Assembly (NCBI RefSeq): GCF_031312595.1
Contig: NZ_CP133592.1
Coordinates: forward strand, 2,294,001 to 2,358,000
Origin: Methanolobus sediminis
Lineage (GTDB): Archaea > Halobacteriota > Methanosarcinia > Methanosarcinales > Methanosarcinaceae
Direction of reading: 5' to 3'
DNA: 64,000 nucleotides
Below the pieces are notes generated by a model. It saw nothing but the letters and a program-made list of their open reading frames with translations. It was not told where the DNA came from and made no database searches. Position numbers and translations under genes: made by a program. Shown one piece after another: positions 157 through 16,054 of the stretch (position 1 is the stretch's first letter; each line of letters starts with the position of its first letter).

Positions 157-491
157 TGATTATCACCGAAAAGAATTATTCGGGACATTCCTCATGTAAA
201 CTGTGTGAGAAAAGCTCTACTGTGTGATTGATACGATAAGGTAATGATATTGGCTGATGGGGCTAAATAACGTAGAGGATGTATGCGAGGTTCAAATCAA
301 ATCCTTTGTGTAGTTATTGGAAGGGGAAGTAGTAATCAAAAACACAATGTTTACTAACAATATGTAAAACTCGCTTTCATAAAAATACGGTTGAAGTTCT
401 TTTTTGAAACGTTAGTTAACTTTATTTAGAGTGATAACGATTTATTTTTTAAGTAATCTCATATTAATAAAATATTTAAGCAGATGATTTT
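157..491. other. Intergenic region with copy 1 of a degenerate repeat
   Basis: No gene is seen here. The first 100 bases or so (157-260) are the upstream region of the leftward gene at 1-156 and resemble 4,690-4,800: both read TATCACC, then a spacer, then GGACATTCCT with ATGTA following. The remainder is AT-rich and holds TATA-like runs (for example around 440-470) that could serve the rightward ParB-like gene starting at 492. No clear Shine-Dalgarno sequence precedes 492, which would suit a leaderless or short-leader message. Confidence 0.4.
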
Positions 492-1424
492 ATGGAAAAC
501 AAAACACTGCAAACTGTAAAAGTTACTGACATCGCACCTAATCCTCACAATCCTAGATTAGTATTTGAAGAGGGAGCATTATCTGAATTAAGAAAATCAA
601 TTGAAAAAGTGGGTATCTTAGTTCCATTAACAGTATATGAAAATAGAAAAGGTACTCCTCCTGAAAGGTATATTCTACTTGATGGTGAAAGAAGGTGGAG
701 ATGTGCTCAAGAACTTTCAATGGAAGAAATCCCAGTGAATATTATTGATGAGCCCGAAGGAGTGACACAAAACATATTGTACATGTTCAATATTCATCAT
801 TTTCGTAAGGAATGGGCTTTGTTCCCAACTGCTTTGAAACTTGAAATGATTATCCGAGAGTTAGGAACGGATAATGAACGGACTTTGCACGAGTTTACGG
901 GTGTTAACCGAAGTACAATCCGAAGATGTAGGATACTACTGTGGTTCCCACACAAATATAGAAATTACTTGATGGAAAAAGGAGCTAAAATTTCGACAGA
1001 CTTTTTCATAGAGTTACATCCAATTGCAAAGAGATTAAGCCACGAATCTAAATTCTATTTTTCGGAAGGTACAGAACGATTAGTCGATAAAATGATCGAT
1101 AAATTCTTAGATGGTCATATTGTAGATGTTAAAGATTTTAGAGAGATCCGAAAATCAATGGCTTACTATGAAAAATCAAATAATTTTGAAGAATTTATTG
1201 ATAAAATAGAAATGTTCATTAATAATAGTGATTGTGAATTAGATATATTTATGTCTACTGAAGTTGAAAATGATAAAGTTAGACAAAATATACTAAAATA
1301 TACTAGCTATTTAATTAATAATCTTAAAGACATAAATCCTGACTTAATTAGTGATTATTACTTTGTTAACCAAATAAAAGCCTTGCATGACCAAGTAGAA
1401 AACATTCTTGAAGAAATTGATTAA
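492..1424 (+). CDS. ParB/Spo0J-like N-terminal domain protein
   Basis: The 310-aa product has a ParB-type N-terminal domain (about residues 8-95). NPHNPR lies at 17-22 and the family's phosphate/CTP-binding signature follows as LLDGERRWRCA, with GERR at 65-68. A helix-turn-helix-like segment (about 130-150, GVNRSTIRRC) and a long helical C-terminus follow. True partition ParB proteins sit beside a ParA ATPase, and none is visible here. Instead the stop codon is followed one base later by the ATG of a PRTase-like gene, so the two are almost certainly co-translated. Stand-alone ParB-fold proteins are frequent in plasmid and phage-defence loci. I infer a nuclease, CTPase or regulatory partner rather than chromosome partition, but the function is unproved. 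Confidence 0.75.
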   Translation: MENKTLQTVKVTDIAPNPHNPRLVFEEGALSELRKSIEKVGILVPLTVYENRKGTPPERYILLDGERRWRCAQELSMEEIPVNIIDEPEGVTQNILYMFNIHHFRKEWALFPTALKLEMIIRELGTDNERTLHEFTGVNRSTIRRCRILLWFPHKYRNYLMEKGAKISTDFFIELHPIAKRLSHESKFYFSEGTERLVDKMIDKFLDGHIVDVKDFREIRKSMAYYEKSNNFEEFIDKIEMFINNSDCELDIFMSTEVENDKVRQNILKYTSYLINNLKDINPDLISDYYFVNQIKALHDQVENILEEID

Positions 1425-1425
1425 A

Positions 1426-2217
1426 ATGACTTCTACAGAAGATTTTTCTATATATGAAAGCAAGTTACGAGAGTGTAGTAGTTATAGAGATAATTCAGTT
1501 CAAAATTGGGCTGATCAACTAGATCAATTAGACCTCGAAAAAGAAACAATCATAAAAATAATTGAAAATCTAAGAATTATCTCCTCTCGCGATATAAGGA
1601 CTATTTTGAGGGATTTAGTAGAACAAAACCAAGCAATTTTCCAACACCCCAACACTTTCATAACTAGCTTTGGATGTAGGGGTAAAAGTGGAGATTTGAT
1701 TCTATATGAATTTCGACATGCAGTTGATGGATATGATGATAAAATAATTGACTCTTGGCAAATCCCTGAAAAACCAACCGACAGTACTATAATATTTTTA
1801 GATGATTTAATTGGTACAGGAAAGCAATCTTGCGACTATATTGAAGACCAACTAAATTTAATTTTAACTTCACATCATGAATCATATTTAATTTGTTTGT
1901 TTGGCACTCCAAATGGAATCGAAGCTGTTGTTAATAGTACAAATTTCAATGTAATCTGTGGTGAGACTCTCTGTGAAGAAGAACATCAGTTTTACAGTGA
2001 TAAATGCATAATTTTTGAAGAGACTGAAAAAGAAAAAATAGGAATCATCAACAATTACTTGAAAGGCAAAGTAGATTTCGATAAGGGTTTACTTCTATGT
2101 TTTCACTATGCTATCCCAAACAATACCATGCCACTAATATGGAAAGAAAATTATCCATATGAAGATGATTTAGGAAACAAGAAAAAGTGGTACGCTTTAT
2201 TACCACGAAAATACTAA
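1426..2217 (+). CDS. PRTase-like protein, possible conflict-system effector
   Basis: The 263-aa product is read from the ATG at 1426, one base after the stop of the ParB-like gene; a TTG at 1408 is possible but less likely. At residues 122-135 there is a hydrophobic strand followed by DDLIGTGKQS, which has the form of the PRPP-binding loop of type I phosphoribosyltransferases (two acidic residues, then a T/S-G-rich loop). The rest does not match any biosynthetic PRTase that I recognise. PRTase-like domains of this kind are known from predicted bacterial conflict systems. With the coupled ParB-like gene and the adjacent restriction-modification pair, I infer a defence-related effector. The reaction and substrate are unknown. 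Confidence 0.6.
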   Translation: MTSTEDFSIYESKLRECSSYRDNSVQNWADQLDQLDLEKETIIKIIENLRIISSRDIRTILRDLVEQNQAIFQHPNTFITSFGCRGKSGDLILYEFRHAVDGYDDKIIDSWQIPEKPTDSTIIFLDDLIGTGKQSCDYIEDQLNLILTSHHESYLICLFGTPNGIEAVVNSTNFNVICGETLCEEEHQFYSDKCIIFEETEKEKIGIINNYLKGKVDFDKGLLLCFHYAIPNNTMPLIWKENYPYEDDLGNKKKWYALLPRKY

Positions 2218-2310
2218 TTCCTTCCATTAGAGTGTGATGTTGGTTTAAACCCCCATATTCTCTTGCTTTATTACCAATGGTAATCTTGTCTTAGAGTATA
2301 ATGATCTTGT

Positions 2311-2469
2311 GACAATTATTGGCAAGTATATGCAGCAAGGGAAGTCACAGACCTATTGTACAGATACTTCTTAGTCCATAGTTCTGACAAAGGATTCTCT
2401 CATTATCATTATACATTACTTTCATATTGCTTAGATGAAGATTATATAGTCTTGGGACATACAGAATAA
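2311..2469 (+). pseudogene. Possible remnant of a coding sequence
   Basis: Between the PRTase-like gene and the restriction gene there is an open stretch of 53 codons ending in TAA at 2467-2469. It has no in-frame ATG but reads like protein (segments YRYFLVHSSDKGFSHYHY and LDEDYIVLGHTE). An in-frame stop lies immediately upstream. It may be the decayed 3' end of a gene truncated when the neighbouring cassettes arrived. This is a weak call from composition only. Confidence 0.2.
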
Positions 2470-2511
2470 TTGCCTCTACAGAAGAAAGAAACAAGAGGCT
2501 TGAGGAATTTT

Positions 2512-3174
2512 ATGAAACCGAATTCACTTCCAACAGAAACAATTGAAAAGTTTCCAGCACTACAAGAAAAGTATGAAATTCATAATTATGGCTCAGCTAT
2601 TGAGATATTGACCCAAGCTTATCCGCAAGAATGGGATGAAATATGTCATCTTTTAAATGACTTCGTTATATACGAAAGTGAAATTATTAAAGGTGGAGGA
2701 AACGAATCAGATATTCCTAAAAAAATCGCGAACTTTTTAACTCCTCGACAATGGCAAGAAACAAAGCTAAGCGCCGATTTGGTTGTCAGACAAAAAAAAA
2801 GAAATTCAAAAGAGGAAGAACAGTTCATTATTAAGGACTATATGGTTGGATATAATATTGATCATTTGAAAAATAAAGTAGCTTTTGATGTAGAATGGAA
2901 TTCAAAAGATCAAACTTTTGATAGAGATTTATCTGCTTTTAGAGCTTTTCATGAAAACGGAATTATTTCATGTGGAATAATACTGACAAGAAGTGTAGAG
3001 TTAAATGATATATTTCATGATTTAGAAATAATGAAGAAATACGGTGCTTCAACAACACAAATGGGAAAACTTCTACCTAGAGTGAAAGCTAGAAGGCAAG
3101 GAGGATGCCCTTTACTTATTATAGGAATCAAATCTCCTTGTGTAATAAGGGCTTCGGATGTAGATAATTCATAA
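2512..3174 (+). CDS. Type II restriction endonuclease, BglII/BstYI family
   Basis: The 220-aa product is read from the ATG at 2512, which follows a good ribosome-binding site (GAGGAA); the TTG at 2470 is unlikely. It resembles the BglII/BstYI family, which cleaves GATC-centred palindromes. The central catalytic region contains VAFDVEWNSKD followed by FDRDLSAFR, giving the acidic metal-binding residues of a PD-(D/E)XK-like core. The C-terminal YGASTTQMGKLLPRV segment is characteristic of this family. It converges on an adenine methylase gene, and together they make a restriction-modification pair. The target is probably a (R)GATC(Y)-type site by family analogy; the exact specificity cannot be read from the sequence. 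Confidence 0.8.
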   Translation: MKPNSLPTETIEKFPALQEKYEIHNYGSAIEILTQAYPQEWDEICHLLNDFVIYESEIIKGGGNESDIPKKIANFLTPRQWQETKLSADLVVRQKKRNSKEEEQFIIKDYMVGYNIDHLKNKVAFDVEWNSKDQTFDRDLSAFRAFHENGIISCGIILTRSVELNDIFHDLEIMKKYGASTTQMGKLLPRVKARRQGGCPLLIIGIKSPCVIRASDVDNS

Positions 3175-3183
3175 TAGAGTTAT

Positions 3184-3230
3184 CAAAAAGGAAGGTGCAA
3201 ATAGGAATTTGTTCAATAACTTCCTTTTTG
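3184..3230. terminator. Bidirectional hairpin between restriction and methylase genes
   Basis: A perfect 11-bp inverted repeat (3184-3194 CAAAAAGGAAG, 3220-3230 CTTCCTTTTTG) lies between the two convergent stops. Each arm ends in a T-run on its own strand, so it can terminate both transcripts. The loop is 25 nt. Confidence 0.6.
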
Positions 3231-3235
3231 TCCAC

Positions 3236-4510
3236 TCATTCCTTCCACGCTAGAAGGGTATACTCCTTAACATCCCGATCTCGATCATTTTTTCTTCCCA
3301 TTGTCATGTGCTTGTGATTTAACTCTCTTATTTCTATGTGATAACCGCTCATGATACTTTCTGCAGTTTTTAATATACACTCAAGAGAGATCATCCCAGT
3401 ATTACTGTAGCTTAGAACTAAATTGCTGCTGCTTAAAGTTATACCTGTAAACAGGTCTTTGAAAGCATCTAATACCTTAGTTCGAATACAGAAAGGTGAC
3501 TGATGCCTATCATCCCTATATCTTCCCTTCACAACGCTGCCACCTTTAAACTGCAAATCCGGGTAATCATAGAGTACAAGAGTTTCTAAAGCATGGTAAA
3601 AGCGACTATAATGGACAAAACAATAAGGAGGATCAGCATACACAGTACATTTAGGTAGAGTTGCCAGCCTTTCTCTGAAATCCATAGTCGTAATTTCATG
3701 ATCAAATTCAGGAGGGATTGTCAAAAGCTCTGAAGAAACACTATCATATTTCCTAAGGAAGAAATCAGCTATTTTTTTCTGTCTATAATTTGAGATATCT
3801 TTCATTGAAGATTCAGTTTTTGCATCCCTGTATTGTGCATAGTGCCCTGTCCCCTGACTACAATATGCCATTGCATGCATAAGAGAAGAGATAATTAGAT
3901 GATAATGAGGTTCTGATTTTTGGGTTTCCGCAATTTCTCTGATCGCATCAATCCACAGACACTGATATGAACTCCACCATGTTCCTGAATAATATTTAGT
4001 AAAAAGGTGCCAATCAAAATCAAAAGAAACATCAATCAATGATTGATTTGCCTCTTCTACTAAGTTAAACTCTTTAAGCCCACCTTTTATATCGTCATAT
4101 GACAGACCTTCAGGCAAATGGCTCAAATTCTTTTGAACAATCTTTTCAGCTTTGGTTATAATTTCCTGCCCAGATATGAATGATTCTTCTTTTTTCCATG
4201 AAGTCAGATATGCATGTGCTATTGATTCGGAATATGCTTGGATATCATTTGAATATATTTTCACACTGTGCCCTAAGCTGCCAGCTATGCTACATGAGCC
4301 TGAAAAAAGATCGCATATTCCTCCTCCATTGTAAATTTCATTAATTCCATCTACAACAAAATCAAGTATTTTAGTTTTAGACCCCATATATTTAATAAAA
4401 GACGGGAAATCATTATTTACGAAATGTCCATCTTTTGGGATTGAATTAAAATCGGAACCTCCTTTTTGTTCCTTATTCTTGTCGTCAATTAATGTTTTTG
4501 TATTTTGCAT
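3236..4510 (-). CDS. DNA adenine methyltransferase, D12 class (Dam-like)
   Basis: The 424-aa product transfers a methyl group from SAM to the N6 of adenine. It has the ordered motifs of the D12/Dam class: KYMGSK near residue 40 (motif X), DLFSGSCS near 67 (SAM-binding motif I, FxGxG form) and DPPY in the C-terminal half (catalytic motif IV, here ADPPYCFVHYSRF). It is longer than E. coli Dam because of an inserted central region, presumably involved in target recognition. It faces the BglII/BstYI-like endonuclease and is its likely protective partner. Characterised BglII-family partners are often cytosine-N4 methylases, so a D12 adenine methylase partner is worth noting. The long leader to the right contains a TATA-like run on the minus strand near 4,560. 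Confidence 0.85.
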   Translation of the reverse strand: MQNTKTLIDDKNKEQKGGSDFNSIPKDGHFVNNDFPSFIKYMGSKTKILDFVVDGINEIYNGGGICDLFSGSCSIAGSLGHSVKIYSNDIQAYSESIAHAYLTSWKKEESFISGQEIITKAEKIVQKNLSHLPEGLSYDDIKGGLKEFNLVEEANQSLIDVSFDFDWHLFTKYYSGTWWSSYQCLWIDAIREIAETQKSEPHYHLIISSLMHAMAYCSQGTGHYAQYRDAKTESSMKDISNYRQKKIADFFLRKYDSVSSELLTIPPEFDHEITTMDFRERLATLPKCTVYADPPYCFVHYSRFYHALETLVLYDYPDLQFKGGSVVKGRYRDDRHQSPFCIRTKVLDAFKDLFTGITLSSSNLVLSYSNTGMISLECILKTAESIMSGYHIEIRELNHKHMTMGRKNDRDRDVKEYTLLAWKE

Positions 4511-4953
4511 GAAATTATTCCTTACAGAAAAGATGATGTTTGTTCATTTTTATTCCACTATTTATATTAATACGTACTTTTCATTTACCGCTTATTGCAT
4601 GATCATATAGTTAAAATATGCGCTGGCTAAAGGGAAGAATCGATTGTTGTTTTTATCTATTCATCAAATAACTAATAAATATTAAAAACTTCTGATATTA
4701 TGCTTCGCTTGTTATTGTTTATCACCAAATGAGTGTATTCAGGACATTCCTTATGTATTCTTTGTAATAATATTAGCCACTGCGATAGAAGGAATAAAGG
4801 CAATGCTATCACTCATCAACAGAATGATTTGCGCATGAGAAGAATGAGAGGAAGAAAGATAAGATAGACTTAGAAAATTATCAAATCTTCCGCACAAGAA
4901 GAGGCAAGGGTAAATACTCCCAACAAAAAATAAAAATATTCATAATTAACGTA
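4511..4953. other. Intergenic region holding degraded repeat copy 2
   Basis: There is no intact gene here. Bases 4,511-4,600 are the methylase promoter region. Bases about 4,685-4,775, read on the minus strand, match the promoter and first codons of the gene at 1-156 (GGTGATAA, CAATAAC in place of CAATGAC, then a shared TCAGAAGTTT), but the start codon is lost. The homology fades on both sides. Bases 4,800-4,950 show nothing further that I can name. Confidence 0.45.
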
Positions 4954-5391
4954 TTAGCAGATTTCAGCACAATCAACAGAAATATTATCCATATCATTGC
5001 CTTCTGATATCATTCTTTCATATCCTGCTCTTGTCAAACCTGTATAGGAATCTATTTTTTGTGGAACTTTCCCTCTTTCTCTCTTCCTAAGGTTAAGTTC
5101 CCTACCTTGAACATAAAGACCATGAAGTTTTATGTATGTCTCGATGCCTAACATCGTAACTCTATATTTCCACATTGTTTTATGCATAATAGGACATTTA
5201 CCTCTTCTTCTGCCTACATATCCATATCTAAGATAACGTTTAAGACCATCTCTTACTTTTTCAGGTTCAAGACCTATCATTTCTGCTATCTCGTTTGGAG
5301 ATGCATATCTTGGAAAATGATTATTAATCATTTCATCAAAAATTTGATACTTCAAATAATTATGTTTATGATAAACACCCGTGGCCTTCAT
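4954..5391 (-). CDS. Winged-helix DNA-binding protein (element regulator)
   Basis: The 145-aa product has a winged-helix-like segment in its first 60 residues (ASPNEIAEMIGLEPEKVRDG followed by LKRYLRYGYVGRRRGK: helix, turn, recognition helix, wing). It has a very basic middle (LNLRKRERGK) and a second small helical unit near the C-terminus (YTGLTRAGYERMISEG). No enzyme motif is seen. Proteins of this build are common in archaeal plasmids and proviruses as transcription regulators. The start is the ATG at 5391, which lies in a small inverted repeat (CCTTCA/TGAAGG) that could be a self-operator. Which element genes it controls is unknown. Confidence 0.6.
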   Translation of the reverse strand: MKATGVYHKHNYLKYQIFDEMINNHFPRYASPNEIAEMIGLEPEKVRDGLKRYLRYGYVGRRRGKCPIMHKTMWKYRVTMLGIETYIKLHGLYVQGRELNLRKRERGKVPQKIDSYTGLTRAGYERMISEGNDMDNISVDCAEIC

Positions 5392-5957
5392 AATTAAAAA
5401 ATTGTGAAGGACGGGACATTAAAATTTTGATGGTCTTATTCTTGGTAGAACCAAGAAATACCAAATTTCTAAAATGTAATACCAAAACTAAGACCCAATA
5501 TTGATAGTCAAAACAGTTAATTTGACCTCGTAGATTTGGTAAAACTAAATGTTTCACCAAACTTACGCATATTCATTTCATAGTTATGGCATTTTTAGTG
5601 CAACATCAAATCTGACTCATTGTAATCTCATGTAACGGATTGTAAAAAGTAGCCTGATATATTGATATTCGTTATTATAGAAATCCTGTTACAGAGGATG
5701 TACTTGATAGGAAAATAGGAAAATGATATTGAAGCAAGGGTAAGGGTGGAAGTGATTTAAGCCCTTACCCTTTATTTTTTAAGAGGTAGATGAAGGGAAT
5801 GGTAACCTTCACCTTTTCGTTTTTCTGATGGAAATGCGCATCTCATCATTGGATTGTGGCAATAAACCTAATTTTTGGAAGCAATAATATCTGCCACAAT
5901 CCAATCCTTCTCTATCTCACAATTAAAAATTCCTGTTCTTAGGACATGTATTTTTAG
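5392..5957. other. Gene-free region with three inverted repeats
   Basis: No credible protein gene is seen in these 566 bases. Three inverted repeats lie close together: AAGGGTAAGGG (5736-5746) with CCCTTACCCTT (5762-5772) followed by TATTTTTT; a weaker GATGAAGG/CCTTCACC pair near 5,789-5,812, also followed by T-runs; and GGATTGTGGCA (5851-5861) with TGCCACAATCC (5892-5902). The first has the form of a plus-strand terminator although no plus-strand gene precedes it, so an untranslated RNA transcribed from about 5,600 is possible. Confidence 0.4.
5736..5780 (+). terminator. Orphan intrinsic-terminator-like hairpin
   Basis: A perfect 11-bp stem (5736-5746 with 5762-5772) is followed by TATTTTTT on the plus strand. 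No plus-strand CDS lies upstream between 5,392 and 5,735. It could terminate a small RNA or simply insulate the minus-strand operon to its right. Confidence 0.45.
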
Positions 5958-6239
5958 TTAGTTTAGATTAAACGCCCTTATTGTGAGGAATGCACCAATA
6001 CCCATGATTGAATAACCAAATAATGTAAATATGGGTGATAGTACAGCTCTTGAGCCTTCCATGGAGTGATACGCAGCATCAGATTCGTTAATTCCTGTTC
6101 CTGCATATGTGCCACCAATAGAATACATTCCTACAAAAATGAGGATCGCAAGGGATACTATCAACACTGCACCGCCTGATACGTTCATATTAATACTCTC
6201 CTTTACTGTTCTTGCATTCCATCTGCCATATCTTTCCAT
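5958..6239 (-). CDS. Small two-helix membrane protein, possible spindle-virus-type capsid protein
   Basis: The 93-aa product has two strongly hydrophobic helices (about residues 23-45 and 67-88) separated by a polar loop containing NESDAAYHSMEGSRA. The neighbour at 6366-6665 has the same layout and shares the pattern (D/E)-x-D-A-x-Y in the loop plus a C-terminal TLxxxxIMxxGA segment, so the two are paralogues. Pairs of short proteins with two hydrophobic helices are the form of major capsid proteins in spindle-shaped archaeal viruses (fusellovirus VP1/VP3, His1 VP21). I infer this role from form only. A pair of small membrane subunits of another kind is equally possible. The ATG at 6239 is used. 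Confidence 0.5.
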   Translation of the reverse strand: MERYGRWNARTVKESINMNVSGGAVLIVSLAILIFVGMYSIGGTYAGTGINESDAAYHSMEGSRAVLSPIFTLFGYSIMGIGAFLTIRAFNLN

Positions 6240-6365
6240 TCATAATGTATATCCGTCCATTCAATTAGTGTTATTTTCTTTTCGCTTGATGCTATAAGCT
6301 AAAAAATAATAATATAGCAAAAAATAAGTAAAAATAATTATACAATCATAAAAAATGTTATGAGA

Positions 6366-6665
6366 TTAGAGGAATCCCATATATCTCATAATCGCGCTAG
6401 CTCCGAGGGCCAAAATCATAAGTGCCGCAAGTGTGTAGCAACTCTCGATATTTCCAATAACACTCTGAGACAGGTTATAGAATGCATCTGTTTCATCAAG
6501 ACTTGCTGAACTTACTACCCCATTGAGGATAACAACGCCAATAATCAGAATACAAGCTACTCTTATAATAATTGTTGTTACTTCTGCTGCATCTCCAGGT
6601 TCCTGCTCGTCCATCTTTGCTTCGACCTTTTTGGTCATTCTCTTTACTGCTGCAATATCCATCAT
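6366..6665 (-). CDS. Small two-helix membrane protein, paralogue of the 5958-6239 product
   Basis: The 99-aa product has a charged N-terminus (about 30 residues, rich in K, E and D), a first hydrophobic helix (about 30-50), the polar loop SLDETDAFYNLSQS and a second helix (about 75-95). It is the first gene of a likely two-gene minus-strand operon; a 126-bp gap separates it from its paralogue. A TATA-like run (GGTATATAAAG) lies about 60 bp upstream near 6,730 and could serve either divergent transcript. The same structural or capsid hypothesis applies as for its paralogue. No enzymatic motif is visible. Confidence 0.5.
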   Translation of the reverse strand: MMDIAAVKRMTKKVEAKMDEQEPGDAAEVTTIIIRVACILIIGVVILNGVVSSASLDETDAFYNLSQSVIGNIESCYTLAALMILALGASAIMRYMGFL

Positions 6666-6900
6666 TTATGAATCATTCCTATTTTAGTAACACCAAATGT
6701 TACTTTCTAAAAAATCATATCTGATTCGGTATATAAAGAGCTATGGAGAGTTTTGAACAAACAGGAGTTAACAAAAGTGTAAAACTTTAATACGTTTATA
6801 TACTGTTTTAAAATGATATATTAACAGTTTAAACATTATCATTTTCGATTACAGGAAATCTACCGAGTTTACATGTCCTAAAACTTTTATAAGAGTGTTT

Positions 6901-7650
6901 ATGGTATCGAATACAAGTTTGAATGATATTGATTTTGAGGAACGAGTCAAGTATCTTGATGGACTTGAAACTAAAATGTATGGTCTTCTTAGTGCCAAAC
7001 CAAAATACGGAGAAAAAGCCAAAATATTCTCAGAAATCAATAAAATTGAAAAGCAGATAAAAGATATTGAAGACACAATTCTTGAGAAAAGTAAGTATAG
7101 CAGTATCAAGGTCAAAAAAGAAAATGATATTAGGACTGTATCAGCTCATAAAAGAATTCAATCAAGACGACAGATTCGCAAAGGCAAAGTTCGTGAACTA
7201 AGAACCAAGTACAGTACCATTTATCGAGATAATTTTGATAAGTTGAAGGCAGAAACATTGCAGGAAAGGAAAGCTCAAAAGGATGCTGAAAAAGAAGCAG
7301 AAAAGCAAGCTGAGAGAGAAGCAATTGCTGAAAAAGAAGCTAAAATCAAAAAACATTATAGCAACGTTTCTTTAGAAAAGCAGGAAAAAGAGTTGAAATT
7401 AATCAGAAATCAGCTCAATTATATTCAAAGTGAAAGCAGAGCGGCATACAAAGAATACAGAGCAACAAAATCCTTAGAAGCAAAAGCACGATGGAAGTAC
7501 TTGAAAGAAGTGGAAAACGAGTTAGTTGCGGAGCGTAGTGTTCTGTATCATAACGTAATATGGTTGAAAGCGCAGGCAAAAGCCAATGCTATTGTTATGG
7601 AAAGAAACAAGCTATTTGATGATAATGATGCAATCGAGGTGCTTGCATGA
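6901..7650 (+). CDS. Coiled-coil protein of the element
   Basis: The 249-aa product is read from the ATG at 6901; a GTG two codons upstream is an alternative. It is nearly all charged helix, with a long coiled-coil run rich in K, E, A and Q in the middle (around residues 115-150, KDAEKEAEKQAEREAIAEK) and further heptad-like stretches on both sides. No globular domain or catalytic motif is recognisable. It overlaps the next gene, a small membrane protein, by an ATGA junction, so the two are co-translated. A structural, tail, scaffold or membrane-associated role in the element is plausible but unproved. A TATA-like GTTTATATACTG at 6,795 precedes it. Confidence 0.55.
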   Translation: MVSNTSLNDIDFEERVKYLDGLETKMYGLLSAKPKYGEKAKIFSEINKIEKQIKDIEDTILEKSKYSSIKVKKENDIRTVSAHKRIQSRRQIRKGKVRELRTKYSTIYRDNFDKLKAETLQERKAQKDAEKEAEKQAEREAIAEKEAKIKKHYSNVSLEKQEKELKLIRNQLNYIQSESRAAYKEYRATKSLEAKARWKYLKEVENELVAERSVLYHNVIWLKAQAKANAIVMERNKLFDDNDAIEVLA

Positions 7651-7934
7651 TTCCCTGGGAAATGTGGGCTACAATGTTAGCTCTGGGAATTCTGAGTATG
7701 GGCTATAATTGGTATGTCGAGGATGATGAAAACTATACAGATATCCTGACAGGCTTTGCATCAATGATATTTTACATGATATGCGGAATAACTCTTTTTG
7801 GTGGAGTTGTCACCCAAACAATGACTTATGCAAATCAGTATTTTGCATGGCTGTTTATTGCCATCGGCATTATTGAAGGGATTATTCTTTTCACAAGAGT
7901 AACGGACTTATGGCACACTGATAAAACGGAATGA
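7647..7934 (+). CDS. Small membrane protein with three predicted helices
   Basis: The 95-aa product has hydrophobic segments at about residues 3-20, 35-55 and 65-85, an acidic loop (VEDDENYTD) after the first, and a polar C-terminus. Its ATG lies within the TGA of the coiled-coil gene (ATGA overlap), so translation is coupled. The family is not recognised. The pairing of a soluble coiled-coil protein with a small membrane protein would suit a virion, secretion or holin-like function, but nothing in the sequence decides this. Confidence 0.5.
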   Translation: MIPWEMWATMLALGILSMGYNWYVEDDENYTDILTGFASMIFYMICGITLFGGVVTQTMTYANQYFAWLFIAIGIIEGIILFTRVTDLWHTDKTE

Positions 7935-8081
7935 TAATATCCTGAACATATCATTTCCAATCTTTTATTCCTCTTTTTCTGACCTGAAGATCACTACAAA
8001 GAATAGACCTTACTTTGATGGAAAATCTCTTCAAGTGGTCGGATAGTGCCCTGATGAAGTCTCAGCACAATCTCTTGTGAC

Positions 8082-8133
8082 GGATTAAAAAAGAAAAAAG
8101 GTATAATAGGGTTGGTTAGTTGACCTATACCTT
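8082..8133 (-). terminator. Terminator of the minus-strand gene at 8125
   Basis: An inverted repeat (8098-8105 AAGGTATA, 8126-8133 TATACCTT) overlaps the stop codon region. On the minus strand it is followed by CTTTTTTCTTTTTT. This is a typical hairpin plus T-run. Confidence 0.5.
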
Positions 8134-8640
8134 CAGATTTTTCCGTTCAAAGACGTATTTCATGCCCTCTTCATATTTTCTGCCACATAGAATAAACTTA
8201 TATTGCAGCAAACTGCAGGTTCTTTCAATTTCACGAAGACTGAAATTGACATTCGGATATTGGAATTCTAACTTCCTTTTAAAGTCTATAGGATAATTCC
8301 ATCCGAACTTCCCAGTAGTTTGGTCATAGTGTTTAAAAGCCAATGTCTGAATTTCCTTCTCTAAATTGATTTCAATAGGGGAGCTTACAGCATCAATTTT
8401 CCTTTCTTTGAGCACTTGTTCTCTTGCTTCTGGGAAACTCAAGTTTTCAGATTCCATCTTTTCCATAATAAGTGCCTGAAAATCTTTCGGTTCAATGACA
8501 CTGCTTTCAGTCTTAGTCTCATTGTCGATGCTTATAGGCGTACTATCATTACTTTTCTTGACTGATGGTTGTGGCCACTCTGGCAATTTATGAGCGATGC
8601 TTTCATCATCTATGCCTTCGGCTCTTTCTTCATTTATCAC
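8125..8640 (-). CDS. Hypothetical protein with acidic disordered N-terminus
   Basis: The 171-aa product has a low-complexity, Ser/Thr/Glu-rich first 60 residues and a more ordered C-terminal half (NYPIDFKRKLEFQYPNVN, then FSLREIERTCSLLQ) that could be a small winged-helix fold. No family is recognised. It is the last gene of a leftward run (9584 to 8125), with a 36-bp gap to the gene before it, and ends in a clear hairpin terminator. A DNA-binding or replication-accessory role would fit but is a guess. Confidence 0.45.
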   Translation of the reverse strand: MINEERAEGIDDESIAHKLPEWPQPSVKKSNDSTPISIDNETKTESSVIEPKDFQALIMEKMESENLSFPEAREQVLKERKIDAVSSPIEINLEKEIQTLAFKHYDQTTGKFGWNYPIDFKRKLEFQYPNVNFSLREIERTCSLLQYKFILCGRKYEEGMKYVFERKNLKV

Positions 8641-8676
8641 TTATATTCACCTCAATTTATTTAAATCTCTGTTAGC

Positions 8677-8946
8677 TCATGTTAATAAGCTAAAATTTGC
8701 TGAAACATGATAGTTTTCAGGGTTTTCTTGTCTCAATGCCAACGTTTTTTGGATTAATTCTTTTAAATCCCCTTTACCACCTATTGCTTTGTATGCTTCA
8801 TCTATATCGAAAACGAAGAATTCTTCGCTTAATGCTTCGTGTGCTTCATCTACAGTGAAGAATTTAAATTCCCCATCACTTGCTAAGTGTGCTTTAAGTT
8901 CAAGTTTTTTAAGTAAATGAAGAAGCTTATTATCACTTTCTATCAT
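8677..8946 (-). CDS. Hypothetical small protein
   Basis: The 89-aa product is charged and soluble, with an internal near-repetition: FKFFTVDEAHEALSE and FFVFDIDEAYKAIGG both follow the pattern F-x-V/I-D-E-A-x-x-A. This suggests two copies of a short helix-forming unit. The family is not recognised. It lies between two other unrecognised leftward genes, probably in one transcript. Confidence 0.4.
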   Translation of the reverse strand: MIESDNKLLHLLKKLELKAHLASDGEFKFFTVDEAHEALSEEFFVFDIDEAYKAIGGKGDLKELIQKTLALRQENPENYHVSANFSLLT

Positions 8947-9107
8947 AGTTTTTCACCTTTTGTTATAATCAGGTGCGCGCATCTATTCTCTACTACTACT
9001 CGTGAGTACTTATAGGACGATTTTTGTTTTTGATTATAGAAAAAAAATAAGAAACGGTGAATGATAATGAAAATATAATCGGAAATGGTGATTGATAACG
9101 AAAATTA

Positions 9108-9584
9108 CTACTCTATTAATTGCCATCTTCTTGGCTTGAATGGGTTACCATTGTCTTTGAATAGTTCTTTAATCTTTCTTTTTCTATCTTCCTTATTCTT
9201 CGTCAAATTATCAAGTCTTAAACGAGCAAGTTCGGGTGTACAGCCAACTATCTCAACAATTTCACTTGTTGTTCGATATTCAGTACCTTTAAAAGCATCT
9301 GTGAAAGCAGAATCAGGATAATCAAGAATTGTTTGACCATTTATTTTGTCACGTGATTTAATTTCATGCTTTTTAGTTTCTTCCTCAACAGGTTCTTCCT
9401 TTGGAGTCCATCCTACATGAGCACGATTTATTATCAAAGTATCTCTAAAAAATTCCCGATGCAATTCGTTTTCGTATTTTTCTATTAATTCTTCTTCTTT
9501 TCGATGTTGTTGGTCTATACATTCCTCAATATAATCTTCATATCCATCTACTTCTTCATCTGTTGGAATATTGTCAGAACTCAT
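9108..9584 (-). CDS. Hypothetical protein with a helix-turn-helix-like segment
   Basis: The 158-aa product is read from the ATG at 9584; a TTG three codons upstream also opens the frame. The first half is very acidic and helical (EDYIEECIDQQHRKEEELIE). The second half holds TTSEIVEIVGCTPELARLRL, which fits a helix-turn-helix of the kind that begins with a T-S cap, then a basic tail (KEDRKRKIKELF). It is probably an element-encoded regulator or DNA-binding accessory protein. Two imperfect 30-bp tandem units (about 9,051-9,108) lie just beyond its 3' end. Confidence 0.45.
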   Translation of the reverse strand: MSSDNIPTDEEVDGYEDYIEECIDQQHRKEEELIEKYENELHREFFRDTLIINRAHVGWTPKEEPVEEETKKHEIKSRDKINGQTILDYPDSAFTDAFKGTEYRTTSEIVEIVGCTPELARLRLDNLTKNKEDRKRKIKELFKDNGNPFKPRRWQLIE

Positions 9585-9720
9585 ATATCTCAAATTAGTA
9601 TAGTAATGCAGTATATAATATAATTACTGTAACCTTGGTAGAAATTAGATGATAATCTAAGTTACTGTACAATTATTTCTGTTACTTGATTTGTGAGAAA
9701 AGAATGCTGACAAAAAGATA

Positions 9721-10407
9721 TTACCAATCAATAAAAAGCGGGACATCAACAGCATAGTCATCCAAACAGTCTACATAATCTTTAAATTCAACATCATCAA
9801 AATCCATTGCTGAAAGGACTTTATGTTTATTGAGATTTGCATTTATTGTATCAACAGTTTCTTTTGGCAATTTTAATTTGTAGACAACAACTAGGACTGC
9901 CATAAGTTCATAAATCTGTTTTGTAACACCATAATGATCCCTTCCCTTGAATGGACTATGGACAAAATGATTTCTCTGAAGCTGAACAAACCCCATAATA
10001 GCTTCCGAACGTTCATATTGTTCTTGAGTTAATTTGTCCTCCAAGTCATTTAGTACATATTCTTTGACGAATTTATAATTTCGATTACCATATATTGATT
10101 TGTAGGATTCAAGATATTCATCCCAATTAATCTTTAAGGCACATATTTTGAGAAGATATTCATAAGCTACACCAAATAGTGTATAGATAATTTTCATATC
10201 CATTAGGTCATTATTTCCTAGAGAATCTACTAAATAGAGGTACCTCGAAAACACCTTTAAGTTATCGGCAAAGAAACGTTCTTTGTCTTCTTCATTGAAC
10301 TTACTGAATGCACTGTAATCTTTATAGAATTCATTGCATTCCTTATATATTGCTCCGAAATCCAAATGCCTATCGTAGTTATTGGTGTCGTTTTTGGTTA
10401 TTGACAA
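9721..10407 (-). CDS. HEPN-like protein, candidate RNase effector
   Basis: The 228-aa product is all-helical in appearance. Its third quarter carries LQRNHFVHSPFKG, an R-x4-H motif (R145, H150) at the end of a helix, as in the catalytic site of HEPN ribonucleases. The preceding helices (residues 70-100) contain the conserved hydrophobic and acidic positions expected of a HEPN bundle. The start is a TTG at 10407 (an in-frame stop lies not far upstream and the first internal ATG is about 70 residues in). It lies 34 bp downstream of a class III-cyclase-like gene on the same strand. HEPN effectors are common in antiviral and toxin systems, so I infer that a nucleotide made by the neighbour may control this RNase. 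Activity is untested. Confidence 0.55.
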   Translation of the reverse strand: MSITKNDTNNYDRHLDFGAIYKECNEFYKDYSAFSKFNEEDKERFFADNLKVFSRYLYLVDSLGNNDLMDMKIIYTLFGVAYEYLLKICALKINWDEYLESYKSIYGNRNYKFVKEYVLNDLEDKLTQEQYERSEAIMGFVQLQRNHFVHSPFKGRDHYGVTKQIYELMAVLVVVYKLKLPKETVDTINANLNKHKVLSAMDFDDVEFKDYVDCLDDYAVDVPLFIDW

Positions 10408-10441
10408 TTTATCGCATCCAATAATAGTTAATCACATTACC

Positions 10442-11251
10442 TTAAATCCTAAAAAATTCAAATTCTGATTTGTTTTCATAGTTGATTAACAGCGTTTCAT
10501 CTTCTGGGTAGTAAGTTTGACAAAAAAAGTCATGGTAATTAGCTACCCATTCATATTTGGATATAACATCATAAGAATGAGGGGATTTCAATTCCTTTTC
10601 CACATTTGTTTTATGGGACTTTAGATATTCCAAAACCTTTGGTAGATTAGTTTCATCGCGGTTATAGTACAAAATAGCAAGATAATTTATGAAATAATGA
10701 CCATCTTTGTCTTTTAATAAGAAGTGAGTATATACGTCTCCTTTTGTAGTCCAATGATCAGCAAAAAACCGAACTAACTTATAGACTTTTGTACTTATAA
10801 TAATTCGAGGGTTTATTGCGGTTTCACTTTCAAGGTTATGTGCTTCAACAATTGGATAGCCAAAAGCAATTTCTTCATCAACATATGTATAACCTACTGC
10901 AACTGCTCCTCTTACAAAATATCCTTTAAGTGCCAAGCTAAGTTGATAATAGCTAAGAAGCTCAAAAAGTTCTATACAATCATTTGCTTCTATATCTTCT
11001 AATTTTTTAGTATTAGGATATTTCAGTAACAAATTATCAGTGAAAATTTTAATAATACCTTTTTCATCAGGTGTTTTTAGGTATTCTAGCCCTTCATGCA
11101 GTGCCTCATAAATTTTGTTTAGCTCATCATTAGCTTCAATGGGATTATTTGAACATTTTTTTAATAATCCTGTATATCCAAGTATGTCTGCAAATGCAAG
11201 AAATGTAAATGTAACATTCAATGGTTTTTTTGTAATAGTCATTCCACTCAT
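10442..11251 (-). CDS. Class III nucleotidyl-cyclase-like (Pycsar/mCpol-like fold) protein
   Basis: The 269-aa product starts with a hydrophobic strand ending in FADILGYTGLL (D22). Fifty residues later comes IIKIFTDNLLL (D72), then FVRGAVAVGYTY (114-122) and a conserved-looking FGYPIVEAHNLESE region followed by PRIIIS. Two metal-binding aspartates about 50 residues apart in hydrophobic strands, with a following R-G-A/G strand, is the layout of class III nucleotide cyclase palm domains, including defence cyclases of the Pycsar type. No GGDEF motif and no adenylate-cyclase purine-specifying residues can be assigned. It is the first gene of a two-gene leftward operon with the HEPN-like gene. I infer a signal-nucleotide synthase activated by infection. 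It could also be a catalytically altered relative. Confidence 0.55.
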   Translation of the reverse strand: MSGMTITKKPLNVTFTFLAFADILGYTGLLKKCSNNPIEANDELNKIYEALHEGLEYLKTPDEKGIIKIFTDNLLLKYPNTKKLEDIEANDCIELFELLSYYQLSLALKGYFVRGAVAVGYTYVDEEIAFGYPIVEAHNLESETAINPRIIISTKVYKLVRFFADHWTTKGDVYTHFLLKDKDGHYFINYLAILYYNRDETNLPKVLEYLKSHKTNVEKELKSPHSYDVISKYEWVANYHDFFCQTYYPEDETLLINYENKSEFEFFRI

Positions 11252-12162
11252 ACATATTTAATTATTTTTATAGTACTTAACGATAATTAGTATTGTCGTG
11301 TTTCCCATGTATATGACCATTCATATGGAACTACAATAATGCCCACTGAGCAAAATAAAGTGGACAAATAAAAAGGTCATCTCCATTTTTACTTAAAAGT
11401 CATATGCAGTTTATCTCATACATTTATTGTTTTATTTGTTGATGTTAGAATAATAATTGCAGAAGAGTTAATGAATATGATTAAGATCGAATAAACACCA
11501 TCTCTACATATCATTCCTTCAAACTCTCAATCAAACTATAATCATTATCTAATATACAAATTATTAACTACATAATAAGTATTAGGTGCCATGTTTTTAT
11601 TTGAAATTATGGTTTTTTTAGTTAAATGATATGTGTAAAATAAGTATTAAGAGCCATGAATTATGAAATTATGAACCCAATTATGTAGAAAAACAGTATG
11701 TATCGCCATGAATTATGAAATTATTGATTTTTGAGAAACTAACTATATACATGTCATGAAATAGCACAAATTATATTTCCTTCTTATATATATTAATACA
11801 TTCGTATGTAGAAAAAAAGAACCCTATACATATACGTATAATACATAATTACATAATTACATAATTATTATTCGGTTTTATGGAGCCTAATCGTGATTCG
11901 CAAAATTATGAAATCTTGGGAAATTATGAAATCTGGGATAAATCACGCTGAAATTATGTAAAATAACATTACAAATATGCACATCTTATCATTATCATCA
12001 TTTATGACTACTTCTTTTCATCAAAAAAACAATCATATTCGTGGATTTCCAAAATGAAGGTATATGGTTCCTTCAAACTCTCCATAAGGTTATATACTTG
12101 GAAAATGAATATAAGTATTGAAAGTAAATAAGAATCATAAAAAGATAACAGACACCGGGCAG
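11252..12162. other. AT-rich iteron-like region, candidate replication origin of the element
   Basis: No convincing gene occurs in these 900 bases. A unit containing GCCATGAATTATGAAATTAT recurs (GCCATG at 11588, 11653 and 11705; the second and third copies are nearly identical over about 20 bases, the first is partial). Three tandem ACATAATT octamers follow (11843-11866). Then two head-to-tail copies of AAATTATGAAATCT(T)GGG (11903-11920, 11921-11937) are bracketed by CGTGATT (11892-11898) and AATCACG (11941-11947), with further AAATTATG words at 11604 and 11951. Direct repeats, tandem octamers, very high A+T and a position directly upstream of the replication operon are the usual signs of an iteron-type origin. 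Confidence 0.5.
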
Positions 12163-12273
12163 ATGAAGAGTCGTCGTTTTTTAGATGATTTCCGAGCATT
12201 GAAAACCGTTTTAAAATCTTTTAAAGCCTTCACAGATACGCTATTTTTTATGATTCAGGTCGTGAGAACTTGA
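12163..12273 (+). CDS. Very small basic protein (36 aa), first gene of the replication operon
   Basis: This is an ATG-initiated open frame of 36 codons rich in Arg, Lys and Phe (begins MKSRRFLDDFRALK). Its TGA overlaps the TTG start of the next small frame (TTGA), which is the junction expected of translationally coupled genes. A TATA-like GGTTATATACTTGG lies at about 12,088-12,101, some 65 bp upstream. The function is unknown and it is too short for family assignment. Confidence 0.35.
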   Translation: MKSRRFLDDFRALKTVLKSFKAFTDTLFFMIQVVRT

Positions 12274-12410
12274 ATCAAACCGATATTAATCAGACAGTAA
12301 CCACATTGGTTGCAGACCGTAAAGATGTATTAGAGTCACTTGCAGCAACAGGTAGCCCAACAGAAAAGGCACTTGCTGAGACATTTTTGGAAATTTCAGC
12401 AGGGGTGTAA
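12270..12410 (+). CDS. Small helical protein (46 aa), TTG start
   Basis: A 46-codon frame is read from a TTG that overlaps the preceding stop. The product is polar and helical (segments TTLVADRKDVLESL and EKALAETFLEISAGV), with composition typical of real protein. It ends 2 bp before the ATG of the ribbon-helix-helix gene, so it is probably translated as part of the same short operon. No family is recognised. Confidence 0.4.
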   Translation: MNQTDINQTVTTLVADRKDVLESLAATGSPTEKALAETFLEISAGV

Positions 12411-12412
12411 GA

Positions 12413-12574
12413 ATGGGTAGGCAAGCTAGGTATGATAACAAAAAACAAATGTGCATTTCTTTTACGCCTACCACATATGACAGGATTGATGAAGAACGTG
12501 GAGTTATTCCCAGAAGTGCTTTTGTATCTAATATTGTTGAACAGTATTTTGCAGGTAAGCAGGTGGACAACTAA
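12413..12574 (+). CDS. Ribbon-helix-helix (CopG-like) regulator, 53 aa
   Basis: The 53-aa product fits the ribbon-helix-helix fold. A basic strand (KKQMCISFTPTTYDRID) is followed by a helix, a turn with RSAFVSNIVEQYF and a short tail. In this fold the strand pair contacts DNA and the second helix forms the dimer. The gene follows a GGGGTG ribosome-binding site and precedes the DUF927 gene by 125 bp. The gap contains two nested perfect inverted repeats, which are the expected operator form for such a dimeric regulator. A plasmid copy-control or autoregulatory role for the replication gene is likely. Confidence 0.65.
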   Translation: MGRQARYDNKKQMCISFTPTTYDRIDEERGVIPRSAFVSNIVEQYFAGKQVDN

Positions 12575-12597
12575 AAAAAGAAGAAACGAGGAAAAAT

Positions 12598-12670
12598 CAG
12601 GAACCTCCTGATTCAATTGACAAACCCAGTTAATAAATCAATTGAATCCTAATGTAAGTAATGGTTCCTG
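12598..12670. promoter_or_regulatory. Nested inverted repeats, candidate operator upstream of the DUF927 gene
   Basis: The outer arms are CAGGAACC (12598-12605) and GGTTCCTG (12663-12670). The inner arms are GATTCAATTGA (12610-12620) and TCAATTGAATC (12638-12648). Both pairs are perfect and lie between the RHH gene and the ATG at 12699. They could be an operator, a replication-control structure, or an attenuating hairpin in the mRNA. Confidence 0.5.
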
Positions 12671-12698
12671 ATTGATTCCCGTATCAAGAGGGAATATC

Positions 12699-14585
12699 AT
12701 GATAACTAAAGATGATATTAATTTTGATGGTGACATGGAAGGGAGGATTCTTATTGATGGCACATTTGAAATTCCTGAAACATTCTTCAATACCGATTTC
12801 TACATTCCTCGCGGTTATGAAGTAAAAGATCGTTGTGTGAAAGAAATCCGATTAGATGAAAATGATAATCCTGTCCTTAATGCAGTTGGAATACCAATAG
12901 GTTATCAAATCTGTGATAGTGCTTGCATGATAACAGGTAGAAGTCTTGGGCTTGATGACAATGAACGTTATTTGAAGGTAACATTTCATGATGGTCGTAA
13001 TTGGTTGCACTATTGGATAAAGCAGAAGGAAATATTCACCAAGAAAGGTATATTTGAACATCTTGTAAGCCAAGGATTCGTTACAGATGAGAAAGATGCT
13101 GCAAGAGTAACCAAGTATTTTAGAAAATGCTATACTGTCAATGATGCATCGAACACATTAGTACAAGGCATAGTTGCAAGTTCTAATGGATGGAAACATG
13201 ACAATACCTGTTTTGTCTTCGGTACAAGAATGATTTGTGAAAGTGGTGTTGACAAAGAAGTCTTCTTAACCGATAGCAGCCTTGAAGAAAAACTTAGTGC
13301 AAAAGGTACAGTGGAAGAATGGGTAGCAGGCAATAAGAGGTTATTAGCTTTTCCAAAACCAAGGTTTGTTTGCTACGCAGCAATGACGGCACCATTGTTG
13401 GAACCTCTTAATGTTTCATCATTTTTAGTAGACTCAACAGGCGGTTCAAGTACAGGAAAGACAACAGAAGATGATGCAGCAATCAGTCAGATTGGAAATC
13501 CAAAAGCATTGAAACATAAGGGTGAAAGCACAGTAGCTTCAGTTGAAGAAAATGCAAAGATGTTTTCAGGACTGCCTTTGTATTATGATGAAACAACCAA
13601 TACATCAGAAAAAACAGCACAAAATATCATTTACACCATTGCAAATGAAACCGAAAAGGGTCGTGCTAGGAAGGATGGTGGATTAAGGGAAACTAAATCA
13701 TGGAAATGCGTTGGATTGACAACAGGCGAGAAGTCGCTTATCAATTATGCAGGAAATACAGGACAGTATGCAAGGGTCATTACACTTAAAGGTGGAATTG
13801 GTCAATCAGGCATCAAGGATATTGTTGATGAGTCTAAAGCTACAAACGTAAACAACTATGGTCATATTATTGAACCATTCCTTAGGAAAGTATTCAAGCA
13901 CAAAGCTGAACTTAATGTTTGGTTTCGGGAATATAAATCCCAGTTTGAAGTAATGGACAATGATATCAATAATCGTTTGATTGATTATTTTGCAGCAATT
14001 GCAGTTGCGGGTAAGTTGCTTGAAGAAGTTTATCAGGAAATAGGTATCGAACCTGTAAACCATTTGGAAATTGTCAATCAGATTTATGAAGAGGTTGTAT
14101 TGAACAATCCAATTAAAGACCAAGCAATTGTAGCACTTGAAAGAGTTTATGATTGGATGTCTTCTCATTCAGGTCATTTTATAAATGAGATGAGTATAGC
14201 CGACATCAGAACATGGGTTACGGTTTCAGATAAAGCTCCTGATATTGTTTATGGTTGGTATGGAAATCCAAAAGGTATTATGCATATTGATTTTAATAAG
14301 TCCGAGTTGGATAAATTCTTAGAACGAGAAGGTTTCAATCCAAGCTATGTTATTGACTATTGGAAGAATTACGGGATTTTAACCGTTGGCAGCATAAAGG
14401 ATAGAAAAACAGGACAACCAAAAGATGATCCATCAGGTGCGAGAAATGTGTCACATTACATTAAAAACCAAAGTAAGAAGACACCACAAAGAGTGATTAG
14501 CATACAAGAGGAAAAGTTCAAACAGGTATTGGAATTAACAGATTCAGATATAATAGAAAGAATAGGTCGCAAATCTGTATGGTAA
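12699..14585 (+). CDS. DUF927-domain ATPase, putative replication helicase/primase component
   Basis: The 628-aa product is read from the ATG at 12699, preceded by AGAGGGA; an in-frame TTG at 12672 is less likely. The central half matches the DUF927 family found in plasmid, phage and provirus replication proteins. A Walker A GGSSTGKTT lies at about residues 248-256, after a hydrophobic strand. A Walker B-like LPLYYDET follows about 50 residues later, then a conserved polar region (RKDGGLRETKSWKCVG) and arginine-containing AGNTGQYARV. The N-terminal 200 residues have no recognisable TOPRIM or primase motif. It follows the iteron-like region and the RHH gene, so it is the probable replication initiator or helicase of the element. 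Confidence 0.75.
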   Translation: MITKDDINFDGDMEGRILIDGTFEIPETFFNTDFYIPRGYEVKDRCVKEIRLDENDNPVLNAVGIPIGYQICDSACMITGRSLGLDDNERYLKVTFHDGRNWLHYWIKQKEIFTKKGIFEHLVSQGFVTDEKDAARVTKYFRKCYTVNDASNTLVQGIVASSNGWKHDNTCFVFGTRMICESGVDKEVFLTDSSLEEKLSAKGTVEEWVAGNKRLLAFPKPRFVCYAAMTAPLLEPLNVSSFLVDSTGGSSTGKTTEDDAAISQIGNPKALKHKGESTVASVEENAKMFSGLPLYYDETTNTSEKTAQNIIYTIANETEKGRARKDGGLRETKSWKCVGLTTGEKSLINYAGNTGQYARVITLKGGIGQSGIKDIVDESKATNVNNYGHIIEPFLRKVFKHKAELNVWFREYKSQFEVMDNDINNRLIDYFAAIAVAGKLLEEVYQEIGIEPVNHLEIVNQIYEEVVLNNPIKDQAIVALERVYDWMSSHSGHFINEMSIADIRTWVTVSDKAPDIVYGWYGNPKGIMHIDFNKSELDKFLEREGFNPSYVIDYWKNYGILTVGSIKDRKTGQPKDDPSGARNVSHYIKNQSKKTPQRVISIQEEKFKQVLELTDSDIIERIGRKSVW

Positions 14586-14684
14586 TCCGCCATACACATT
14601 TCTTTTTTAAAATAATACATTATACCACTGCGGCATAGAAAATTGAATGTAGGCGATGTACGATAGGAAGAACGGTAAAAAAAA

Positions 14685-15902
14685 TTACTGTTTTAGTTCT
14701 GCTTTCTTACGTTCATATAGCTCATGTATCTCTGGGCTTTTCAATATTATTGATATCATTTCATCAATAGTATTGTCCTTCTCCTGTTGTGCTTTCTCGT
14801 CAAGCCCATAGCCACATTTTATACAGAACCGATGCTTTTTATCTTTTTTATTATATTCCTTACATCTCGGACATCTTACAGGTTTTGATGGGTCAACTTG
14901 TTCTTCAAGCTTCTTGATTCCATACATTGCATCTATTGCATTATCTGTATCTCTTCCTGATAGATGAACATAAATTTCAGGCATATTTGAACCAGGAGTC
15001 CAACCTAAATGCTGCTTCATTTGTTGTTCAGTTAGATGATTTGCTAAATGGGTCGCCCTTGAGTGTCGGAAATGATGAGGATTTACAGGTTTCTTGATTC
15101 CTGCTTTCTTTGCAACACGTTTTATTTTGTCACTCATTGCTTGTTTCTTTATTGGCTTGATATTTTTATCCAAACTTACCCATAATGCTGCATTCGGGTC
15201 ATCTTTCAAAGGATGTGCATCAATCCATTGGCGCAGATAACTTGCTGCCATAACAAGTTTAACTCTTCTTGAACCTGTTTTGCCTGATGGGAATTGAATA
15301 TGTGCAAGACCTTCACTATCAAACTCAACATGATATATCAAACAAGACATTATTTCTCCGATTCTTGCTCCTGATTCATAAAGGGTAGCAATGAAGGCTC
15401 TATCTCTTGCTGTGCTTTCATGTTCAATTAATGTATAAACATCTTCTATAGTTAGCAGGTTTTCAGGTAGCTTCCTTTGACTCCTTGGATTTCTGACCTT
15501 TAACATACTAAGAAGTTCATCCTTTTTCATATATTTCAAAAAATCACGTAAATGCATCTTACGAGTTGCTTTTGATTTTTCTGATAATGGTTTTCCTCTA
15601 TTGCTAATATATGTTTCAAGCATTGTTAAATAATCATCAATGTCTGATTCAGATATCGAACTTAATTCAAAATCTGTATTGGTCAAAAGAAAAACCATAC
15701 TATCTATCATATTGCAGATTGAAGTTTTCTTAATCACATCTTCCCCTTGTCGTACTAAGTAGTTTATGTATCCATCAGCTATTTCAATGTTAGAATCTGT
15801 TGTTAAAATAGGAACAAATCTACCTGTGGATGTGATTGTATATTCTGTACCTAATCTCTTCAAACGAGCTCTTGCGTTCTTTAATTCAACTACATATGAC
15901 AT
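14685..15902 (-). CDS. Tyrosine integrase (XerC/D-like) with C-terminal zinc ribbon
   Basis: The 405-aa product from ATG 15902 catalyses site-specific recombination; an upstream ATG at 15962 adds 20 residues but would sit very close to the TATA-like run. It has a SAM-like N-terminal core-binding domain (about 40-130) and a full catalytic domain: R180 in ESGARIGE, the HxxR box in NPHHFRHSRATHL (H276, R279), H298 in QHLGW and the nucleophile Y311 in EIYVHLSG. The C-terminus adds a zinc ribbon (CPRCKEY and CIKCGY), an arrangement common in archaeal integrases. It lies at the right edge of the island, transcribed inward. A GTGAAAG ribosome-binding site favours the shorter start. Confidence 0.85.
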   Translation of the reverse strand: MSYVVELKNARARLKRLGTEYTITSTGRFVPILTTDSNIEIADGYINYLVRQGEDVIKKTSICNMIDSMVFLLTNTDFELSSISESDIDDYLTMLETYISNRGKPLSEKSKATRKMHLRDFLKYMKKDELLSMLKVRNPRSQRKLPENLLTIEDVYTLIEHESTARDRAFIATLYESGARIGEIMSCLIYHVEFDSEGLAHIQFPSGKTGSRRVKLVMAASYLRQWIDAHPLKDDPNAALWVSLDKNIKPIKKQAMSDKIKRVAKKAGIKKPVNPHHFRHSRATHLANHLTEQQMKQHLGWTPGSNMPEIYVHLSGRDTDNAIDAMYGIKKLEEQVDPSKPVRCPRCKEYNKKDKKHRFCIKCGYGLDEKAQQEKDNTIDEMISIILKSPEIHELYERKKAELKQ

Positions 15903-16054
15903 ATCTTTCACAAGTTCTATATTACCTTTAAAGGATATATATGTTATGTAATTAACTAACATTATAATATATAATATATATTCATTAAAACGGATGAACA
16001 GGGTTTTATCCTATCATACGAATATATTTTATATATTATAATAGAAGGAGTGTT

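Follow-up and report, generated by a model that had tools for sequence, protein, structure and literature searches.

Pycsar systems comprise a PycC cyclase, whose product is cCMP or cUMP, and an effector, PycTM or PycTIR, and the classical partner of a HEPN toxin is a nucleotidyltransferase (MNT). Such HEPN toxins can be neutralized by oligoAMPylation (cited in PMC12988326). In some cases HEPN RNases are encoded by genes coupled or fused to mCpol (PMC12657218). The HEPN proteins ApeA, AbiU2 and EC042_2821 are associated with restriction operons, and the catalytic elements of the HEPN fold are an Rx4-6H motif with a polar residue after the arginine and an upstream Ex3[KR] motif (PMC3710099).

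We analysed a 64,000-nucleotide stretch of the Methanolobus sediminis genome (hereafter the window), in which a gene predicted to encode a class III nucleotidyl cyclase-fold protein (gene C) precedes a gene that very probably encodes a HEPN RNase (gene H). As in Pycsar, a small putative effector gene lies beside that of a cyclase of class III fold whose two metal aspartates are present. However, the partner in the window is of the HEPN type, and a distinct C-terminal region (KYxWxAxYHNxFC) marks the C family. Because PADLOC makes no PycC call and no CNB, membrane or TIR effector was found, we do not file the window pair as Pycsar. The pair also resembles mCpol/Panoptes and type III CRISPR signalling in that a putative nucleotide synthase adjoins an effector, but the predicted fold of C is that of a class III cyclase, and the first Cas10-type structure (3w2w, Cmr2-Cmr3) appears at Foldseek rank 45. 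An mCpol reading of C was rejected on fold, since class III cyclases outrank the Cas10-type structures. HEPN-MNT toxin-antitoxin systems likewise set a HEPN RNase next to a nucleotide-using enzyme, although the window pair has no MNT, H is 228 amino acids long, and the cyclase fold of C led us to reject an MNT reading of this protein.

The initial annotation knew of no described system that pairs these forms, and this held in the literature searched: a class III cyclase with a HEPN effector was not found there, subscription papers being mostly outside its coverage. The nearest conceptual precedent is mCpol with HEPN RNases (PMC12657218), which employs a different enzyme fold. The two window genes place a putative cyclase and a probable RNase compactly side by side, and few class III cyclases occur in this phylum (Pfam PF00211 is matched in 4 of 148 genomes). 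The C family, which spans archaea and bacteria, retains its catalytic residues and often neighbours defence genes, escapes Pfam altogether and defence databases almost entirely. If active, it would mean that prokaryotic immunity has a widespread source of nucleotide signals that has gone unrecorded.

Arrangement of the gene pair

The principal features of the pair are as follows, in window coordinates.

10442..11251, minus strand: gene C, predicted class III nucleotidyl cyclase-fold protein, 269 aa, ATG start
10408..10441, minus strand: 34-bp gap from the stop of C to the start of H, read from the sequence
9721..10407, minus strand: gene H, probable HEPN-type protein, 228 aa, TTG start
~11262..11275, minus strand: archaeal TATA-like sequence CTATAAAAATAA upstream of the ATG of C, read by eye

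The coordinates, lengths and 34-bp spacing of the two co-directional genes agree with the initial annotation. The TTG start of H lies a few codons inside the ATG position of its closest relatives. No obvious promoter was seen by eye in the 34-bp gap, and we infer that C and H are co-transcribed. Their shared direction is weak evidence of a relationship, because the genes beyond H (9108-9593, 8677-8946 and 8125-8640) are also on the minus strand.

The integrated element around C and H

Both genes are cargo of a mobile element that is missing from close relatives. The element and two of its other genes occupy the following positions.

1..15961, no strand assigned: right-hand part of the integrated element, ~17.16 kb in all, delimited by direct repeat, empty site and GC content
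12672..14585, plus strand: DUF927/Cch-type replicative helicase-like gene of the element (Pfam DUF927, E 1.9e-45)
14685..15962, minus strand: tyrosine recombinase (integrase) of the element (Pfam Phage_integrase, E 5.5e-22)

The left end of the element is located ~1.2 kb beyond the window start. An AT-rich 16-bp direct repeat, TTATAATATATAATAT, is present at both ends, at window position 15962 and 1195 bases to the left of the window start (L122, ~18806). In five genomes of the same genus the left and right flanks meet with an overlap of ~20 bp, and therefore the empty site is intact in these relatives. The GC content of the element is below that of the chromosome to its right. The helicase-like gene also matches the NCBIfam model SCCmet_Cch1 with an E-value of 7e-22, a match that falls short of the cut-off of that model, and the element further carries a D12 methyltransferase gene and a ParB-like gene, the latter recognized by eye.

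Gene C is confidently predicted to have a class III nucleotidyl cyclase fold

An AlphaFold2 model of C, built from a 44-member alignment of its relatives, has a pLDDT of 91.4 and a pTM of 0.89. When this model was compared with the PDB using Foldseek, ranks 1-44 were all class III nucleotidyl cyclases (best E 2e-5, probability 1.00), and we therefore assign this fold to C with confidence on the strength of the model. TM-scores are 0.36-0.51 by query and mostly 0.55-0.66 when normalized by target for isolated catalytic domains. The query scores are moderate at least partly because the C-terminal residues of C fall outside the cyclase core.

The initial annotation had singled out D22 in FADILG, D72 in FTDNLL and an RGAVAVG strand beginning at R114, all with correct numbering, and had read the gene as cyclase-like, which both the structure prediction and the Foldseek run bear out. 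These residues are kept beyond chance: D22 is present in 43/43 and D72 in 44/44 of the aligned relatives, R114 in 43/44 and G115 in 44/44. Also essentially invariant among the 44 are E141, R149 (42/44), D183 and K232. The conserved C-terminal region beyond the cyclase core includes D183-G184, K232, W235 and Y239. In a profile alignment with an archaeal class III cyclase, D22 corresponds to the first metal aspartate of the FxDI type and D72 to the aspartate of GDG. Against PF00211 (Guanylate_cyc), the window protein scores 13.2 bits relative to a cut-off of 21.9 (E 0.066), with the alignment at the first aspartate motif. The positions that we take, from motif spacing, to be those of the canonical transition-state asparagine and arginine are occupied by V135 and N139, and both vary across the 44 relatives.

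Relatives of C form a large, Pfam-invisible family, with members in archaea and, among bacteria, in Clostridia, Bacilli, Proteobacteria, Chlorobi and Bacteroidota; both chromosomes and plasmids carry them. In all, 85 distinct C-like genes were counted. Scans of viral contigs found 5 distant relatives. PycC is the best-scoring PADLOC match in the family, with hits of 3 of the 44 members to one PycC model (best 9e-4) and of a single member to another (0.014). The window protein itself has no PADLOC family match at E-values up to 1.

Several smaller observations concern the ends of these proteins. Matches of the C profile to caspase-3 in the PDB (E ~0.06) were dismissed as chance, given that they involve the C-terminal region only and all represent one protein. 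Two archaeal relatives (L002:1453-2535 and L134:1456-2577) have an N-terminal extension of ~70 residues that by eye resembles HicA, and in both cases a small gene of ~90 aa precedes the C relative, overlapping or abutting it.

Gene H very probably encodes a HEPN RNase

Across 16 relatives of H, with identities down to 14%, the sole invariant residues are E83, R145, N146 and H150. These residues make up the motifs E83-x3-K87 and R145-N146-x3-H150, and the window protein shares K87 with most of its relatives. The R145-x4-H150 motif noticed by the initial annotation, correctly numbered and located within QRNHFVH, is thus conserved beyond chance, and together with Ex3K it gives the HEPN catalytic signature that supports the HEPN-like reading of the second gene. 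The same elements, RNx3H with a polar residue after the arginine and Ex3K, occur in the HEPN RNases AbiU2, ApeA, DUF3644 and Cthe_2314. However, all scanned H-family members stay below the cut-offs of these Pfam models, and the sequence of H is otherwise unique. Its relatives touch two HEPN-type models weakly, DUF3644 at E 0.014 and HEPN_Apea at E 0.024, both below cut-off.

The window protein has no Pfam or PADLOC match, and neither resource recognizes a nucleotide-binding, cyclic-nucleotide-binding, membrane or TIR domain in it; a comparison with PDB sequences gave no convincing match. Its description as a helical protein agrees with a single-sequence model that is helical, yet this model, the sole basis for the description, has a pLDDT of only 41. 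Searches covering the phylum of the host, plasmids and phage-like contigs found H relatives only in archaea of that phylum, and none on plasmids or viral contigs.

Genomic neighbourhoods of the two families

C relatives repeatedly reside with type I restriction genes or with other defence genes. On four methanogen contigs (L089, L095, L096 and L139), they lie within a type I restriction operon, with hsdM on one side and hsdS on the other. Another is beside hsdM and an HsdS-like gene (L110), one is flanked by HsdS-like and HsdR-like genes (L146), and one is followed by an HsdR-like gene (L147); the two HsdR-like genes were recognized by eye from sequence. Outside these operons, neighbours include Shedu (L031), an AbiH gene 7 bp downstream (L070), a TnsA-like gene (L028) and the sirtuin Dsr1 (L020). 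A TIR-domain gene is located 13 bp upstream of a distant C relative (L085:6148-7936).

Three neighbours of C relatives are potentially of the HEPN type. The clearest is a HEPN_Cthe2314 gene 20 bp upstream of the C relative in L027 (Pfam E 4e-10), a locus that also has a TIR-type effector downstream. The neighbour in L141 is AbiU2-like by a weak match (E 0.049) and carries RDRWVAH, and that in L154 carries RNTSTH and is HEPN by motif only, with no library match. Because a profile comparison of the H family with the L027 HEPN protein gave no match, we do not link the two families as kin. The presence of these unrelated HEPN proteins beside C relatives makes partner swapping possible.

Other members of the family keep different company. 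Many of the 85 distinct C-like genes have no co-directional partner, and in Clostridia housekeeping neighbours are common and no partner is consistent.

H relatives are likewise associated with restriction operons, as are ApeA, AbiU2 and EC042_2821. In three loci (L128:7466-8601, L130:6581-8235 and L131:7055-9024) they lie directly 3' of hsdM with an overlap of a few bases, N6_Mtase being confirmed, and in the same-genus genome G129 an H-family gene is near hsdS. In another genome of the genus, G119 (L024:5910-8264), an H relative and a gene for a 504-aa membrane-type protein form a two-gene insertion, and the genes flanking this insertion have counterparts that are adjacent in the window genome (31897/31934). 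A gene that appears by eye to be MNT-like follows a distant H relative in L011.

Both families are found beside defence genes, and therefore a defence role is plausible for C and for H, each considered separately. This association is qualitative.

Three arrangements deserve mention in their own right. Between hsdM and hsdS, cyclase-like genes occur in tandem runs of one, two or three (L089:5472-8626, L095:2063-3858, L096:6806-8601 and L139:1477-2310), and the H relatives that directly follow hsdM represent a restriction-embedded HEPN-type family unseen by Pfam. The TIR-domain gene and C relative in L085 form a Pycsar-like arrangement, but PADLOC makes no PycC call there.

Possible functions of the pair

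The initial annotation proposed a two-gene defence unit, and we tentatively prefer this reading, which we place slightly short of an even chance: C and H would be defence cargo in which a Pycsar-like cyclase signal switches on an RNase effector. C might sense that infection has occurred or that another defence has failed, and then cyclize a nucleoside triphosphate. Its product, or C itself, would activate H, which would cleave cellular RNA so that growth halts before the virus matures. The logic would be that of Pycsar, except that an RNase would replace the membrane or TIR effector. Computation gives the fold of C with its conserved metal aspartates, the HEPN signature of H, the mobility of their element and the defence company of both families, all of which stand with the proposal. 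The part that did not hold is the expectation that the pair is kept together across neighbourhoods, as no H relative is beside a C relative in any other locus examined. Ten H-relative loci contain no C gene, and three genomes of the same genus (G119, G129 and G137) have H but no detectable C. It also speaks against the proposal that neither Pfam nor PADLOC recognizes a nucleotide-binding domain in H and that the host genome has no PF00027 protein. Pairing of C with H is thus not established, and the link between them is the weakest step of the explanation because neither family depends on the other elsewhere.

The same observations lend weight to a second reading, which we consider only slightly less likely, namely that C and H are independent defence genes that lie side by side by chance. 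Accessory genes commonly gather on mobile elements, and each of the two could act alone or with host partners, for example by guarding restriction systems. That H relatives occur without C in the same genus and elsewhere, that C relatives are often solitary, and that each family is separately embedded in type I restriction operons all fit such independence. Against it are the 34-bp spacing of C and H and the unrelated HEPN proteins near C relatives, which suggest a recurrent cyclase-HEPN link.

A more elaborate form of the preferred defence unit would make the pair an archaeal Pycsar-like system, in which the HEPN RNase reads the signal through an unrecognized binding mode. The wide cyclase family would then swap effectors (HEPN, TIR, Shedu or AbiH) and guard type I restriction operons. 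We consider this combination unlikely.

It is improbable that C instead restrains H in the manner of an antitoxin, either binding it directly or transferring a nucleotide to it, much as MNT proteins act on HEPN toxins. The known HEPN-nucleotidyltransferase pairs and the MNT-like gene after the distant H relative offer parallels, but C is predicted to have a class III cyclase fold rather than that of an MNT, and H persists without C in genomes of the same genus.

Even more doubtful is a role for C as a non-cyclizing, nucleotide-binding sensor. Rank 21 of the Foldseek matches is indeed an ATP-binding, class III-like protein (PDB 6yii), and the presumed transition-state positions V135 and N139 vary. 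However, nearly all bacterial and archaeal members retain both metal aspartates and R114, which fits catalysis, and the conserved R149 could stand in for the missing transition-state arginine. Finally, the class III fold would suit an ordinary adenylate cyclase that serves cAMP signalling in the host, but this is scarcely credible for a gene whose integrated element is lacking in five relatives, in a host genome with no PF00027 cNMP-binding protein and no PF00211 cyclase.

The region upstream of gene C

Upstream of C, window positions 11252-12285 form a region of ~1 kb that is AT-rich and mostly non-coding, with imperfect repeats at 11630-11672 and 11682-11724. The element may have its origin or a regulatory region here.
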